The notes beneath the pieces were generated by a model, which saw only the letters and a program-made list of their open reading frames with translations, did no database searches and had not been told where the DNA came from. Position numbers and translations under genes: made by a program. Below, piece by piece: positions 22,797-29,599 of a stretch of 55,774 nucleotides of DNA (the stretch's first letter is position 1; every line of letters starts with the position of its first letter). Origin of the DNA: Planctomycetaceae bacterium (lineage in GTDB: Bacteria > Planctomycetota > Planctomycetia > Pirellulales > Thermoguttaceae); NCBI GenBank assembly GCA_021372555.1, contig JAJFUI010000111.1, forward strand, positions 1 through 55,774, written 5' to 3'.

Positions 22797-23486
22797 TTAA
22801 TCTCGGTCCCGGTTCCCGGTCACCAGCGTTAAGTAATACATCAGCGTCAATATCGCCTGCAGCGTCGCCGCCACATACGTGAGGGCCGCGGCATTGAGCA
22901 CCTTGCTCACATAGTGCAATTCATCAGGGCTTACGATGCCCAGACTGACCAACTGGGCCTTTGCCCGTGCGCTCGCGTTGAACTCGACGGGCAGATTTAC
23001 CACCTGAAAGGCAACGAACGCTGAAAACAGCGCGATCCCGAGCCAAATCAGCACCGGGTTCATGTGGAGCACCGCCCCGACCACGATAAGGATCACGCCC
23101 GCGTTGCTGCCAATGCCCGCCACCGGCACCGCAGCGTTGCGAATCGTCAGCGGCGCGTACGCCAGCGCGTCCTGCAAGGCGTGACCCGCCTCGTGCGCAG
23201 CAATGCCGACGGCCGCCAGCGTTCGATTCGCGTACACGTCCTGGCTCAGCCGAAGCACCTTGTCCCGCGGGTCGTAATGGTCGCTAAGCTGCCCGGGCAC
23301 CTGCTCGATCGCCACGTTCATCAGTCCGGCAGAATCCAAGATGTGCCGAGCCGCCGCCGCCCCGCTCAACGGCGCCGCCAATTGCTGCGCCTGAGCGTAG
23401 GCCGTATGAATCCGCAACTGCGCCCAAAGCCCCAGCAAAACGGCCGGGGCAATGAACAGGAAATACATCGGATCGAAATAAAACAT
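22797..23486 (-). CDS. YugP-like zinc membrane metallopeptidase
   Basis: A 229-residue membrane protein of the YugP/Zn-peptidase-2 type. It opens with an N-terminal helix after MFYFDPMYFLFIAP. The zinc-protease motif HEAGH (H98, E99, H102) is in AAVGIAAHEAGHALQDA, preceded by LRLSQDVYANRTLAAVG, both usual for the family. Two more hydrophobic helices follow, then VNLPVEFNASARAK and a final membrane segment. The ATG at 23486 is chosen because homology begins there and AAAGG lies upstream. The physiological substrate of this family is not established. Confidence 0.87.
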   Translation of the reverse strand: MFYFDPMYFLFIAPAVLLGLWAQLRIHTAYAQAQQLAAPLSGAAAARHILDSAGLMNVAIEQVPGQLSDHYDPRDKVLRLSQDVYANRTLAAVGIAAHEAGHALQDALAYAPLTIRNAAVPVAGIGSNAGVILIVVGAVLHMNPVLIWLGIALFSAFVAFQVVNLPVEFNASARAKAQLVSLGIVSPDELHYVSKVLNAAALTYVAATLQAILTLMYYLTLVTGNRDRD

Positions 23487-23544
23487 ACCTGCTACCTTTG
23501 CCCTTTCGCCCCGGCCGCACGCTTGCACGGCGGGGTTGCCTTAT

Positions 23545-24087
23545 CTACGGATTCGACGGTCCACTGGTTCGCTTCTCCCCGGCCTTCTTATTATTCGTCG
23601 CGTCCTTCGCGCCGTCACCGCTGTTTTGCGTCTTCCCCGGTTGCTGCTTCACCGCTCCCGGCGTTGCCCCGGCCTTCTTGTCGGTGGCCTTGCCGCTGGT
23701 TTTCGTTTCCGGCCAGTGCGGCAGAGCGATTGGCACCATTCCTTGCTTGGGCGATTGGGCAAAAACCCCGAATCCTTGACCAACTCCGCTCAAAACAACC
23801 GTCCCCCCAGACGGGGACGAATCGATCTGGACCAGCGGAAATCCCGTGGGCGAAAAGGTCGCAATCGCCCCGCCGTGGGACTGGCTGTCGGTGCCTGCCA
23901 AAATCACCGGCCTGCCGTTGGCCCCGACCACCACGAGCCTCCCGCACTCGGCTTGGATCGACTCCAGTCGCTCGCAAACCACGCGTTCCGCCCGCACCTC
24001 GCGCGAGCCAACCAGCTTGTCCCGTAGGACAGCCCCCAGCGTCAGGAACAACAGCGGATAGACAATCCAGCGTTCGCGGGTGGACAT
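23545..24087 (-). CDS. Membrane-anchored protein of unknown function
   Basis: A 180-residue protein, not assigned to a named family. It has an N-terminal membrane helix (WIVYPLLFLTLGAVL) and a short helical link. A beta-rich part follows with VVVGANGRPVILAGTDSQSHGGAIATFSPTGFPLVQIDSSPSGGTVVLSG, and the C-terminal tail is Lys/Gly-rich. The beta part reads like a repeated 'G-x-P-hydrophobic' strand pattern. It lies on the same strand as the metallopeptidase, 58 bases upstream of it, and may share its transcript. Confidence 0.7.
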   Translation of the reverse strand: MSTRERWIVYPLLFLTLGAVLRDKLVGSREVRAERVVCERLESIQAECGRLVVVGANGRPVILAGTDSQSHGGAIATFSPTGFPLVQIDSSPSGGTVVLSGVGQGFGVFAQSPKQGMVPIALPHWPETKTSGKATDKKAGATPGAVKQQPGKTQNSGDGAKDATNNKKAGEKRTSGPSNP

Positions 24088-24317: not shown

Positions 24318-24635
24318 ATGAGCACCAAGTTCCTGTTCGCAGTAACCGTGGCGCTATGCCTTGGCGGATGCTCGTCCGAAACGCCGCAGCCGACTTCTCC
24401 GTCCCCGCTGGCCGTGCGTGGCAAGCCGGCGGCAACGTCGCACCCCAAGCCGACTGCAAAGGTGCCACCGGCCATCCTCGGCAAAGCGCTCTTGCCGGCC
24501 GGTGCGACGGTCGTCCCCAATGCTACGACCGATCAGTTCGGGTTCCCGCTGGTCATCGTCATCAACCCGCCGCCGGTACCCAAGGAAATCGAGGGCCCGT
24601 CGCCGCCGATCAAGGACGACTCCAAGGCGCATTGA
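24318..24635 (+). CDS. Small Pro-rich lipoprotein
   Basis: A 105-residue predicted lipoprotein. The signal peptide MSTKFLFAVTVALCLGGC ends in a lipobox (LGGC, Cys18). The mature part is Pro-rich and short, with a central VVPNATTDQFGFPLVIVINPPPVP segment that could be one beta hairpin. No family was recognised. The opposite-strand reading is unlikely to be coding, and the -10 box before the ATG supports this start. Confidence 0.62.
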   Translation: MSTKFLFAVTVALCLGGCSSETPQPTSPSPLAVRGKPAATSHPKPTAKVPPAILGKALLPAGATVVPNATTDQFGFPLVIVINPPPVPKEIEGPSPPIKDDSKAH

Positions 24636-24702: not shown

Positions 24703-26208
24703 CTAGAGAATCGTCCCAGTTGCCGTCTTTAGCACCGGCGATGACGGGTCGGCCACCGTCGCCTTGAATTGGACCTCGTAGGTCTTCCCTTTTTCGAACT
24801 TGCCGGCCTTCATCAGCATGATGAAGTTGGGCGTCACGAGCGGCGCCATCTCCTTCCCCTTCGTCACCTCGATCCCCTTCAACCGCTGTGGGAAGATCAT
24901 GCCCGGCTGTCGGCCTGGCGTGCAGTCAGCCGTGGCGCGAATGCGGAAAGTGTACACGCCGTTCGCCGACGAAAGCTCTTGTGTGAAGGGCAGCGACCGC
25001 GGGGCAAGTCGGGCTTCCCATGCCGGGTCTCCGTAGAAGGCCAGCGTGTCCCGGTCCCACAACAGCCCGAGATTGTCCCTGATCTCCGGAGCTGGCTCCG
25101 TGTAACCCAGGGTCTCGGCCATCCGGCCGAGAATCGTGTGGTCCTTCGCCAAATCCCACTCTTTGTACGTCGCCCGGGCGCTCTTCGGGAATCGCGTCTC
25201 GAGCTCATATACGATCGACTGGTTGTTCAGGTAAAACGCCTCATTCAGCGTGTAGTGGCCCGGCTGGCTGAAGAAGTAATTCATCGTGCCGAAGCCCGCC
25301 GCCGGATACCACTGATTCACCGTGTACCCGATCATCTGCGTGACGCCCGCCGTGCGCATCCAGGCCAGGCAGATGGCGTTCCGGTCGATGCAGTGCCCCA
25401 TCAGACAGTTGCCGGCAGCCAGAAGAACCTTCGGATGATCCTCGCCGTGGATCTCTACCGCGCTCTTGTGGTTGCGCTCGACCGCGACCAGCGTACCCCC
25501 TTGTCGCCAGAACATCCCCTTATTGTTCTTGTCCTTCCCAATTGGATATCCGATCTGCCAGTCACGCTCCGTGGCGTGGCCCGACGTCACGAAGATGTCG
25601 GGTTTACGCTCCATAATCACCTTGGCCAAGGGAAAGGCGTCATCGCCGGTGCCGGTCTTCTGCTCGATCGGTCCGCCGGGCTTCTTCTTCTCGACGTACT
25701 CGTTCTTGCTGGTTTCCTTGTAGCAAATCCCCTCGTCGAAGAGGTCCAACGGAATCACGATCCCGCCGGCCGCCTTGCGAATGATCAACGGCTCCTTGGT
25801 CTTTGCGATCCGCAACGCATCGTCGGAAGTGTAGCCGGTGATGATGCCCCACATGATGTCGGTGTACGGATCGTCGTTCATCTGCCGAGTAAGCCGGTGA
25901 ATCCCGATGACGAACATCCGCCCCGCCTCATCCGGCTGGGCCACGAAGCAGGCGTATCGCGGCATCAAGCGCCGCAATTCGCCGGTCGCCTCATTGACGT
26001 CCTTCTGGTACTCGACAACGCTTGCCTTGTGCTTGGTCACCAGTTCATCGACCACGCGATTCCACTTCGCATCGGCGTGCGTTCGTTTCGACACGACGAC
26101 AGCGTAGAGTATTTCGCCGGAAGCGGCCGCTGCGGCGCCAAACGTCGCCACTGCGAACACACAACAGACCGTCAAACACGAAAGCCGAGAGCGGATAGTC
26201 CTGGTCAT
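24703..26208 (-). CDS. Secreted protein resembling clan CD cysteine peptidases
   Basis: A 501-residue exported protein with a signal peptide (CCVFAVATFGAAAAASG). No named family was recognised with certainty. The middle has the two-residue pattern of clan CD peptidases (gingipain, caspase): a His in DIFVTSGHATERDW (H211) after a hydrophobic strand, and a Cys in VLLAAGNCLMGHC (C268) after another, followed by GVTQMIGYTVNQWY. The N-terminal part has ILYAVVVSKRTHADAKW and ACFVAQPDEAGR. The C-terminal 110 residues look like a beta domain (YTFRIRATADC, TYEVQFKATV). Catalytic function is inference from the His and Cys context; it could equally be a non-catalytic relative. Confidence 0.72.
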   Translation of the reverse strand: MTRTIRSRLSCLTVCCVFAVATFGAAAAASGEILYAVVVSKRTHADAKWNRVVDELVTKHKASVVEYQKDVNEATGELRRLMPRYACFVAQPDEAGRMFVIGIHRLTRQMNDDPYTDIMWGIITGYTSDDALRIAKTKEPLIIRKAAGGIVIPLDLFDEGICYKETSKNEYVEKKKPGGPIEQKTGTGDDAFPLAKVIMERKPDIFVTSGHATERDWQIGYPIGKDKNNKGMFWRQGGTLVAVERNHKSAVEIHGEDHPKVLLAAGNCLMGHCIDRNAICLAWMRTAGVTQMIGYTVNQWYPAAGFGTMNYFFSQPGHYTLNEAFYLNNQSIVYELETRFPKSARATYKEWDLAKDHTILGRMAETLGYTEPAPEIRDNLGLLWDRDTLAFYGDPAWEARLAPRSLPFTQELSSANGVYTFRIRATADCTPGRQPGMIFPQRLKGIEVTKGKEMAPLVTPNFIMLMKAGKFEKGKTYEVQFKATVADPSSPVLKTATGTIL

Positions 26209-26357: not shown

Positions 26358-27794
26358 ATGAACTTCCTCTCCTGGACGCAGCTCCTCCTGGCTACCGAGT
26401 GGGCGATCCGCCTCGTCATGCTCCCGGTCATCGTGCTGCGAAAGCAAAAGCCAGCTACCTGCCTCGCTTGGCTTGCCATCGTCTTCTTCGAGCCCTGGAT
26501 CGGCCTGGTGCTTTACCTTCTGATGGGCGAAATCCGCCTCGGCCGGGTGCGACTCGCGCGACGCCGCCAGCGACGCCCTCTGCTTGAAGCCTCCGACTAC
26601 CCCGCGGTCGAGCCCGCGCACGTCGTTGACCCCGCCGCGACCGACGACTTCACCTTGCTGGTCCACCTAGCCGAGCATGTCGGCGGTCTTCCGGCCGTGT
26701 CGGGCAATGCCATCCACCTGATGTCCGACACCGACGTCGTGATCGAGCAACTTATTGCCGCCATCGACGCCGCCAAGCAGCACGTCCACCTCCTCTTCTA
26801 TATCTTCAAGGACGATTCGGTAGGCCAGCAAGTCGCCGCGGCCCTCGCTCGCGCGGCCCAGCGAGGCGTCGCCTGCCGGGTGCTGGCCGATGCCGTTGGC
26901 TCCCGCCGGCTCTTCCGCCGCATGGCCCCCTACCTGCGGCAGCGCGGCGTGCGAATCTTCCCCGCCTTGCCGGCCAATCTTTGGCGGCTCCCCTTCAAGC
27001 GGCTCGATCTCCGCAACCACCGCAAGCTGGCCGTCATCGACGGCTGCGTCGCCTTCACCGGCTCGCAGAACATTGTCGAGGCCAGCTACGGCCATAAGCG
27101 TGCCGGCGTTTGGCACGACATCATGGTCCGCATCACTGGGCCCGTCGTCCGACAGCTTCAAGGAATCTTTCTCGAAGACTGGTTTTACGAGACGGGCGAG
27201 TTGCTCGAAGACGCTGCCCTATTTCCCGATTGCCCACCAACGGGACAAATCGCGGTGCAGGTGGTTCCCACGGGGCCCGACGAGCCGACCGAGCTCTTCG
27301 AGGACCTGATTGTTCGCGCCATCTTCCTCGCGCGGCGGCGCGTGGTAATCACCTCTCCGTATTTCATCCCCAACGAGGCAATGTTGCTGGCGCTCCGCTT
27401 AGCAGCCCTCCGTGGTGTCGAGGTCGATCTCGTAATTCCCAAACGGAGCGACCATCGCCTGGTCAATGCCGCCGGCAGCTTCTACTGCCAGTACCTGATG
27501 CAATACGGCGTCCGCGTGTTCCTGTTTCAGGAAGGCATGCTGCACGCGAAGACCCTCACGGTCGACGACGAGCTGGCGATGTTCGGTTCCGCCAATTACG
27601 ACATTCGCTCCTTCGCCCTGAACTTCGAATTGAACCTGTTCGTTCACGCGGAAGAAGCCGTTCAATCGATGCGCCGCCTCCAGCAAGGCTATCTCGACCA
27701 ATCGCTCCGCGCCGATCCCGCCACGTGGCCCTCGACCACCTTGCCTGGCCGCCTCAAAATGAACCTCGCCAAGCTCTTTAGCCCGCTCCTGTGA
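26358..27794 (+). CDS. cls: Cardiolipin synthase (phospholipase D family)
   Basis: Membrane enzyme that joins phosphatidylglycerol molecules into cardiolipin. The 478-residue protein has two N-terminal hydrophobic segments, PATCLAWLAIVFFEPWIGLVLYLLMGE being the typical second one. Two HKD motifs follow: NHRKLAVIDG with TGSQNI, and HAKTLTVDDELAMFGSANYD. Length and layout match bacterial ClsA-type enzymes. The in-frame start at 26250 adds 36 unrelated residues and crosses the promoter, so 26358 is used. Confidence 0.93.
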   Translation: MNFLSWTQLLLATEWAIRLVMLPVIVLRKQKPATCLAWLAIVFFEPWIGLVLYLLMGEIRLGRVRLARRRQRRPLLEASDYPAVEPAHVVDPAATDDFTLLVHLAEHVGGLPAVSGNAIHLMSDTDVVIEQLIAAIDAAKQHVHLLFYIFKDDSVGQQVAAALARAAQRGVACRVLADAVGSRRLFRRMAPYLRQRGVRIFPALPANLWRLPFKRLDLRNHRKLAVIDGCVAFTGSQNIVEASYGHKRAGVWHDIMVRITGPVVRQLQGIFLEDWFYETGELLEDAALFPDCPPTGQIAVQVVPTGPDEPTELFEDLIVRAIFLARRRVVITSPYFIPNEAMLLALRLAALRGVEVDLVIPKRSDHRLVNAAGSFYCQYLMQYGVRVFLFQEGMLHAKTLTVDDELAMFGSANYDIRSFALNFELNLFVHAEEAVQSMRRLQQGYLDQSLRADPATWPSTTLPGRLKMNLAKLFSPLL

Positions 27795-27896: not shown

Positions 27897-28691
27897 TTAG
27901 CCATCGGGGCTGCTTGGCTGCGTTCCTGGCGGACATGCCATTAGCGGCAGCGTGACAATGAACGTCGCGCCCTGGCCGGGTTGGCTTTCGACATCGATGC
28001 GGCCGCCGTGATTGGTGACGATGCGCCAGGCTTTCGACAGCCCGAGGCCAAGGCCGCGCCCGGCTTGGCGTGCGGAATAGAAGGGATCGAAGATGTGCCG
28101 GCGTTCTTCGGGCTTGACGCCTGGGCCATTGTCACGGACATGGATTCGCACTTGCTGAGCCGCGGTGCCGGTGCCCGGGTCCTGTGGCAAATCGGCACTG
28201 GCGGAGCCAGTGGCACACGTCACGGCGACCTCGATGTGGCCGCCGCTTTGGAGGGCTTCGAGCGAGTTCTGGCAGATGGCTCGAAGGGCAACGGCAAGCT
28301 GGGTTGGGTCGCCTTGCAAGAAGATCGGGCTGGCATCGCCGGTTCGGCGAATCGCGGTCTCCTGCTTCATTGCGCGAGGCAGCAGCTCCGCAATCAGATC
28401 ATCAACCAGCTTGACGACCTCGACCGACTGCAATTCGGGCCGCGGGGGGCGGGCGAAGAGCATCATGTCGGCGATCATCTCGTAGACCCGCATCGCCTGG
28501 GTGCTGATCAGCGCCAAGGCGTGTCGCCGCTCCGGATTGGTCTCTTCGCGGAGCAGCAGTTGCGCGCGGCCGGAGATAACCGTCAGGGGGTTGTTGATCT
28601 CGTGGCCGGCGCCGGCAGCGAACTCGGCCATCGCTTCGAGCTTTTCGGCCTCAAGCGCGCGGTCGAAGTCGGCTCTGTCGTTATCCGACAT
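27897..28691 (-). CDS. Soluble NtrB-like histidine kinase
   Basis: A 264-residue cytoplasmic sensor kinase core. The phospho-acceptor H-box is FAAGAGHEINNPLTVISGRA (H30). The catalytic ATPase domain has an N-box (AICQNSLEAL), G1 (RDNGPGVKPEE), an F-box (IFDPFYSAR) and G2 (GRGLGLGLSKA). There is no transmembrane helix and no input domain beyond about 28 N-terminal residues, so it probably gets its signal from a partner. It lies downstream of the HTH-receiver gene on the same strand, 182 bases away, and may phosphorylate it. Confidence 0.9.
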   Translation of the reverse strand: MSDNDRADFDRALEAEKLEAMAEFAAGAGHEINNPLTVISGRAQLLLREETNPERRHALALISTQAMRVYEMIADMMLFARPPRPELQSVEVVKLVDDLIAELLPRAMKQETAIRRTGDASPIFLQGDPTQLAVALRAICQNSLEALQSGGHIEVAVTCATGSASADLPQDPGTGTAAQQVRIHVRDNGPGVKPEERRHIFDPFYSARQAGRGLGLGLSKAWRIVTNHGGRIDVESQPGQGATFIVTLPLMACPPGTQPSSPDG

Positions 28692-28873: not shown

Positions 28874-29455
28874 CTAGGCGCTGGCGGCGACTTCGATGTC
28901 CAGGTGCTGGCACATCCGCTCCACCAGTCGCTCGACCTCGAACGGCTTGTGAAGGAAGTCGTTGGCGCCGGCTTCGCGGAGCTCGTTGATTTTGTCGTCC
29001 TCGACCATGCCGGAGATGCAGATGATCCGGACGTCATCCATGCTCTTGTCGCTGCGGACACGCTGGCAGACTTCCTTGCCGTTGATGTCGGGGAGCATGA
29101 CGTCAAGCACGATCAGGTCGGGGCGATATTCCTTGACCATCATGCCGGCGTCGAAGCCGTTGTTGACACTGCGGGTCTCGAACCGGCCATCGCGTTCCAA
29201 GGCGTCGGTGATCAGTTCGACCAACTCGGCGTCGTCATCGACGATGAGGACCTTGCGTTTGCCACTTTCCAGGGCGTCGGTGGGGATGCCGTTGTCCCGC
29301 ATAAAGGAGAAGAGCTGGTCGCGGGGAATGCGGCGGAATCGGCTTCCCGGGACGCGGAATCCTTTCAATTGTCCGGAGTCAAAACAGCGGATGATCGTCT
29401 GCTGGGAGACCTTGCAGATTTTGGCCGCTTCGCCGGTTGTAAACACGGTTTTCAT
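28874..29455 (-). CDS. Response regulator with N-terminal helix-turn-helix and C-terminal receiver
   Basis: A 193-residue regulator in which the DNA-binding and receiver domains are in reverse of the common order. Residues about 4-55 (FTTGEAAKICKVSQQTIIRCF, then GFRVPGSRFRRIPRDQL) form a MerR/excisionase-type winged helix-turn-helix. Residues about 67-180 form a complete receiver: VDDD (73-75), phospho-acceptor D118 in LIVLDVMLPD, Ser in ISG (148) and K170 in HKPF. The ATG at 29455 is where homology begins; an ATG at 29470 is possible, and the upstream frame starts with TTG. It is the likely partner of the kinase downstream. Confidence 0.88.
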   Translation of the reverse strand: MKTVFTTGEAAKICKVSQQTIIRCFDSGQLKGFRVPGSRFRRIPRDQLFSFMRDNGIPTDALESGKRKVLIVDDDAELVELITDALERDGRFETRSVNNGFDAGMMVKEYRPDLIVLDVMLPDINGKEVCQRVRSDKSMDDVRIICISGMVEDDKINELREAGANDFLHKPFEVERLVERMCQHLDIEVAASA

Positions 29456-29599
29456 GTTTGGCTCACCCATCCTTGTCAAAGCTGGCTTTAGAACCGCCCT
29501 GAGTTCGCGACTGCCGCAAACCCTTCACTTTCCTTGACTCTATGCAATCCGTAGGCTCATCCGGTTCTTCCGACATTGCCGAACTTGCCAACTGGGCTA

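Follow-up and report, generated by a model that had tools for sequence, protein, structure and literature searches.

The question raised by this locus is whether the 501-residue product of an unassigned gene is an active peptidase and, if so, where it belongs. The gene occupies 24703-26208 (-) of the window, the whole stretch of DNA analysed here (55,774 nucleotides from a Planctomycetaceae bacterium). In the initial annotation, the product was described as a secreted protein with a His/Cys pair in a layout like that of clan CD, and either a new branch of secreted protease or a fold relative lacking activity was considered. According to the structural model and the sequence comparisons described below, the protein is predicted, with a probability of about 0.8, to be a Sec-exported clan CD cysteine endopeptidase from a branch that is sister to C25, the family of the gingipains.

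Gene and protein organization

The reading frame starts with ATG, and its stop codon ends at 24703. The parts of the protein are listed in Table 1.

Table 1. Features of the gene and of protein P0001
Feature	Position	Strand	Remarks
Whole gene, protein P0001 (501 aa), predicted exported clan CD (gingipain-like) cysteine peptidase homologue	24703..26208	-	
N-terminal signal peptide (predicted), residues 1-~30	26119..26208	-	Helix 8-28 in model; putative cleavage site
N-terminal subdomain, residues ~32-137	25798..26115	-	Four beta/alpha units in model
C-terminal (catalytic) subdomain, residues ~139-405	24994..25794	-	Probable boundaries, from model and gingipain match
E165, near-invariant acid, candidate third catalytic residue	25714..25716	-	Glu in 119/120; putative role
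D189, other candidate third catalytic residue	25642..25644	-	Constant in 119/120
H211, proposed catalytic histidine, in SGHATERDW	25576..25578	-	120/120; aligns with C25 GHG histidine
C268, proposed catalytic nucleophile, in GNCLMG	25405..25407	-	119/119; aligns with C25 NCLNG/ACxTG cysteine
YGDPAW motif, residues 392-397	25021..25038	-	Ends catalytic subdomain
C-terminal Ig-like beta-sandwich, residues ~406-496	24721..24993	-	Model; aligned within gingipain K 239-642

In the AlphaFold2 model, residues 8-28 form a hydrophobic helix, and small residues (GAAAAASG) precede the first strand. A hydrophobic N-terminal stretch is present in 70 of 78 relatives. The N-terminal subdomain contains the strands 35-40, 63-67, 85-89 and 119-123, and carries the motif DPYTD..WG..TG (residues 113-125), in which D113, D117, T124 and G125 are invariant; it aligns with D..PD..xGR of C25. 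At the end of the catalytic subdomain, Y392-P395 is kept in all 118 members with letters at these positions, and GDPA is shared with the sister family described below. Residues ~408-485 are mainly strand. The export and the beta-rich C-terminus given in the initial annotation thus agree with the model, the export being a prediction.

Predicted fold

The AlphaFold2 model was calculated from a 78-sequence alignment, and it has a mean pLDDT of 90.6 and a pTM of 0.90. Using Foldseek against the PDB, no match was obtained at E <= 0.001, and the TM-scores were low. The match to gingipains comes from a second aligner, VIA-align, applied to the top 1000 PDB chains from Foldseek. The best of the 1000 aligned chains is gingipain RgpB (4ief), with a Z of 22.1 over 280 residues (model residues 32-403). 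RgpB 1cvr shows a Z of 21.9, and gingipain K (Kgp, 4rbm) shows a Z of 20.5 over 289 residues, where model residues 30-494 are aligned with Kgp 239-642 and the match extends into the Ig-like domain. The agreement with the gingipains indicates that the predicted fold is the clan CD core fold (caspase/haemoglobinase), as the initial annotation had supposed. In gingipain K, an N-terminal subdomain with four strands precedes the catalytic subdomain, which is followed by an Ig-like domain (PMC6426963), and the secondary structure of the model agrees with this layout. As in RgpB and Kgp (MEROPS C25, clan CD), the catalytic domain of two subdomains, the second of them caspase-like, is followed by the Ig-like domain in the same order.

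The next ranks are all clan CD proteins, Csx29 (13.6), separase (C50; 10.4) and SAVED-CHAT (8.6), whereas clostripain (C11; 6.4) is located among unrelated beta-sandwich rows below 7. All four have a His-Cys dyad on the core fold of clan CD (PMC4357240), but their structural scores are much lower than those of the gingipains. As Csx29, separase and SAVED-CHAT are the next-best structural matches, the protein might instead be a clan CD effector whose cleavage is regulated and directed at a single specific partner, as in these proteins, for example in defence or cell death. We consider this quite unlikely, because the protein has a predicted export signal, PADLOC gave no match, the neighbouring genes are not conserved (see below) and the gingipains score far higher.

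The His/Cys pair and its conservation

H211 lies within FVTSGHATERDW and C268 within LLAAGNCLMGHC, and the separation is 57 residues. In the model, H211 follows the strand 205-208 and C268 follows the strand 261-264. The reading frame, the two positions, their separation and the preceding strands are all as the initial annotation had described them. Clan CD is defined by a His and a Cys that each follow a strand, and a glycine adjacent to the catalytic His is a criterion of the clan (PMC4357240). In the model, the invariant His and then the invariant Cys are located at the C-terminal ends of core strands, and the glycine is G210, present in 119 of 120 sequences. The His-Gly layout proposed earlier is correct as to the presence of a glycine, but the glycine precedes the His, and the residue after the His is usually Ala. 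In the one exception, the member L157:1504-3315:-, Ser replaces this glycine (ITSSHATQRD); in the same member W217 is replaced by Leu, and the match contains a TAG stop.

The initial annotation also compared the spacing of 57 with that of gingipains. The value itself is correct, but it is not the gingipain spacing, which is 33 in gingipain K (H444/C477, PMC6426963). In the sampled C25 set the spacing is 30-44, shorter than in the window family, where it ranges from 50 to 57 and is 50 in 75 of 78 members.

H211 and C268 are identical in 31/31 relatives from a whole-protein search. As this set was not selected on the Cys motif, the pair is conserved beyond chance. The conservation count from the motif-guided scan is biased, because the scan motif contained the Cys. 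When the results of all searches are combined (120 sequences), H211 is present in every sequence and C268 in every one that covers it (one contig ends early). The dyad is strictly kept in members down to ~30% identity. Neither of the two findings that would have spoken against the initial annotation, a fold other than that of clan CD or variation of H211 or C268 in homologues, was thus obtained. Nearly as constant across the 120 sequences are S209, G210, W217, G238, G266, N267 and the YGDP motif, and most members also keep H272, downstream of the Cys. E151 was tried as the catalytic acid and dropped, since this position is Val in the window protein and varies in relatives.

At three positions near the presumed substrate pocket, the window protein lacks the consensus residue of the family; it has N310 for Asp, P302 for Gly and F306 for Trp. 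Position 310, Asn here, is Asp in 99 of 119 members and varies across the family. The S1 Asp of gingipain K is D516 (PMC6426963). By its distance from the Cys, N310/D310 may be the equivalent S1 specificity residue, and we treat this as a lead only.

Relationship to C25 and to a sister family

No match to the window protein was found in Pfam, and no credible one in NCBIfam; the TIGR03769 match, over 14 residues and under the cut-off of the model, was attributed to chance. No relative was found among the PDB sequences, using either the single protein or a 23-member profile. C25 membership was judged by Pfam PF01364 (Peptidase_C25) and by structural comparison. Against the 23 members, the best E value with PF01364 is 0.018 (one member), below any usable threshold, and therefore the family is not filed as a member of C25. 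The caution of the initial annotation on naming a family was justified. No description of the family was found in the literature, as searched in open-licence papers.

The family was compared using hhalign with 30 planctomycete C25 domains (P = 4.7e-5), and the His is paired with the His and the Cys with the Cys. The paired segments are SGHATERDW-TGHGAVDIW, GNCLMG-ANCLNG and DPYTDIMWG-DILPDMYIG. With a larger alignment, the score against C25 is 39.6, whereas 20 column shuffles give at most 22.3 and the reversed control gives 14.4. These profile-profile alignments, above the shuffled and reversed controls, place the His and Cys at positions homologous to those of C25, although the direct similarity is weak (P 5e-5 to 2e-4). 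In the planctomycete PF01364 proteins the first motif is TGHGAVDxW, with GHG where the window family mostly has GHA, and the PF01364 model misses the window family. The alignment A2 against a single C25 sequence matched the Cys motif alone and was set aside. The C14 and C11 sets show no profile similarity to the family (hhalign P 0.2-0.5, the same as shuffles). Of the relationships suggested earlier, the one to C25 thus persists as a weak direct link, and those to C11 and C14 do not. As hhalign links the family to C25 and to neither C14 nor C11, it is best placed beside C25 within clan CD.

A sister family of unannotated planctomycete proteins (L164-L172) shares the N-terminal subdomain with the window family (P = 2.4e-19), and its match to C25 spans both subdomains (P = 7.9e-12). 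By way of this sister family, the profile link of the window family to C25 is strong. No Pfam peptidase model matches it. It differs from the window family in its motifs, which in most members are GHGMP and either GxCxxG or a Cys motif resembling it; some members have lost the His. In L164:375-2276:+, in L165:1417-3381:+ and in the second half of L167, GCGDPE or SCGDSQ stands in place of the GHG motif, and the Cys motif is retained (GTCHCG, GSCHSA). L167 consists of two tandem copies, of which only the first has GHG. Altered or lost dyads are possible in these three sequences. The open frame of L170:1-1923:-, a sister-family protein with GHG, continues into a LanC-like domain (PF05147, E 1.2e-8).

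The replacement of the His in L164 and L165 (GCGDPE), together with the loss of consensus residues near the presumed pocket of the window copy (N310, P302, F306), could suggest a secreted pseudo-peptidase, that is, a clan CD fold that serves binding and no longer cleaves proteins. However, in a family of pseudo-enzymes one dyad residue should be missing from some member, and the invariance of H211 and C268 counts against such a function, which we regard as unlikely. Because both residues are strictly kept over this range of identity, sequence conservation favours the new branch of secreted protease over the inactive relative. A third possibility is that the fold is not that of a peptidase, and that H211 and C268 are conserved for metal binding, redox or another hydrolase reaction. 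The conservation of H272 and the lack of a significant match by Foldseek alone are compatible with this, but the Z of 20-22 over 280-289 residues to the gingipains, against less than 7 for unrelated rows, and the profile alignment of the dyad with the C25 catalytic residues make it very improbable.

Distribution and genome context

The whole-protein search covered 298 genomes of the class and found relatives in 45, and at least 263 loci with relatives were found by a profile-guided scan of bacterial and archaeal species genomes. A first scan of genome contigs with the single protein gave no match, and no plasmid relative was found. The 80 loci kept of the 263 are almost all from Planctomycetota or Verrucomicrobiota, and two groundwater genomes are labelled Armatimonadetes. 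The window's genome (4.05 Mb, 93.7% complete) contains one paralogue on another contig (G000:C277, L002:1102-2649:-), with 37% identity and with the His and Cys kept. C25 matches are present in 132 of 246 genomes sampled from the phylum. As PF01364, PF00656 and PF03415 have no match in the window's genome, no clan CD candidate other than the gene and its paralogue was found there.

The gene stands among unrelated genes. On one side is a gene for a putative neutral zinc metallopeptidase (22797-23528), and on the other one for a cardiolipin synthase-like member of the phospholipase D family (26361-27794). Two small adjoining proteins, at 24318-24635 (+) and 23545-24087 (-), have no Pfam match, and the first is lipoprotein-like (LCLGGCSS). 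At 28874-29479 (-), an excisionase-type helix-turn-helix (HTH_17) is fused to a response-regulator receiver, next to a histidine kinase gene (27897-28691). Neighbour clustering over 81 loci revealed no conserved partner gene. Neighbours that recur are genes common in PVC bacteria, as judged by eye DUF1501-like and Gfo/Idh/MocA-like, and an alcohol-dehydrogenase-like gene is located directly upstream in ~5 of the 81 loci.

Proposed mechanism and implications

According to the preferred reading as a clan CD endopeptidase, the protein would be exported to the periplasm or to the outside, where H211 would activate C268. C268 would then attack the peptide bond, a thioester acyl-enzyme would be formed, and water would release the product. 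The His may be oriented by E165 or D189. The enzyme would probably serve in protein breakdown or in the maturation of proteins, either outside the cell or in the periplasm.

The window protein resembles RgpB and Kgp also in the Gly-His and later Cys after strands, in the D..(P)D..xG motif and in the predicted export. It differs from them in its low identity (~11-15% in the structural alignment), in falling below the Pfam C25 threshold, in its longer His-Cys loop and in having no adhesin domains. In gingipains, an inhibitory N-terminal pro-domain of ~200 residues is described (PMC3677877). In the window protein, the first core strand begins at residue 35, directly after the predicted signal peptide. 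As a pro-domain of gingipain size is missing, the enzyme would be active once folded, or would be controlled in some other way. Pfam models of secretion tails gave no match in the 23 members or in the genome; a search of the genome for SprA carries no weight here, since its control gave no match anywhere, and the single Ig-like domain may be confused with such a tail.

We put at about even odds the broader proposal that this is a new clan CD peptidase family of planctomycetes and verrucomicrobia, exported without a gingipain-type pro-domain or type IX secretion, that it makes up, with the sister family, a large set of extracellular proteases overlooked by current annotation, and that the specificity is shifted in the window's branch.

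In an estuarine sediment, exported C25 peptidases reportedly account for more than 40% of the predicted exported peptidase genes at each depth (PMC6752024). The window family is a large and unannotated one, mainly planctomycete and verrucomicrobial, whose predicted fold and dyad are of the gingipain type and to which the family libraries are blind. Surveys resting on current family models would miss both this family and its sister, for which one scan gave at least 263 loci. If active, these proteins would provide a gingipain-like catalytic unit apparently without the pro-domain and type IX export of gingipains, and would add a class of extracellular proteases in bacteria that matter for carbon turnover.
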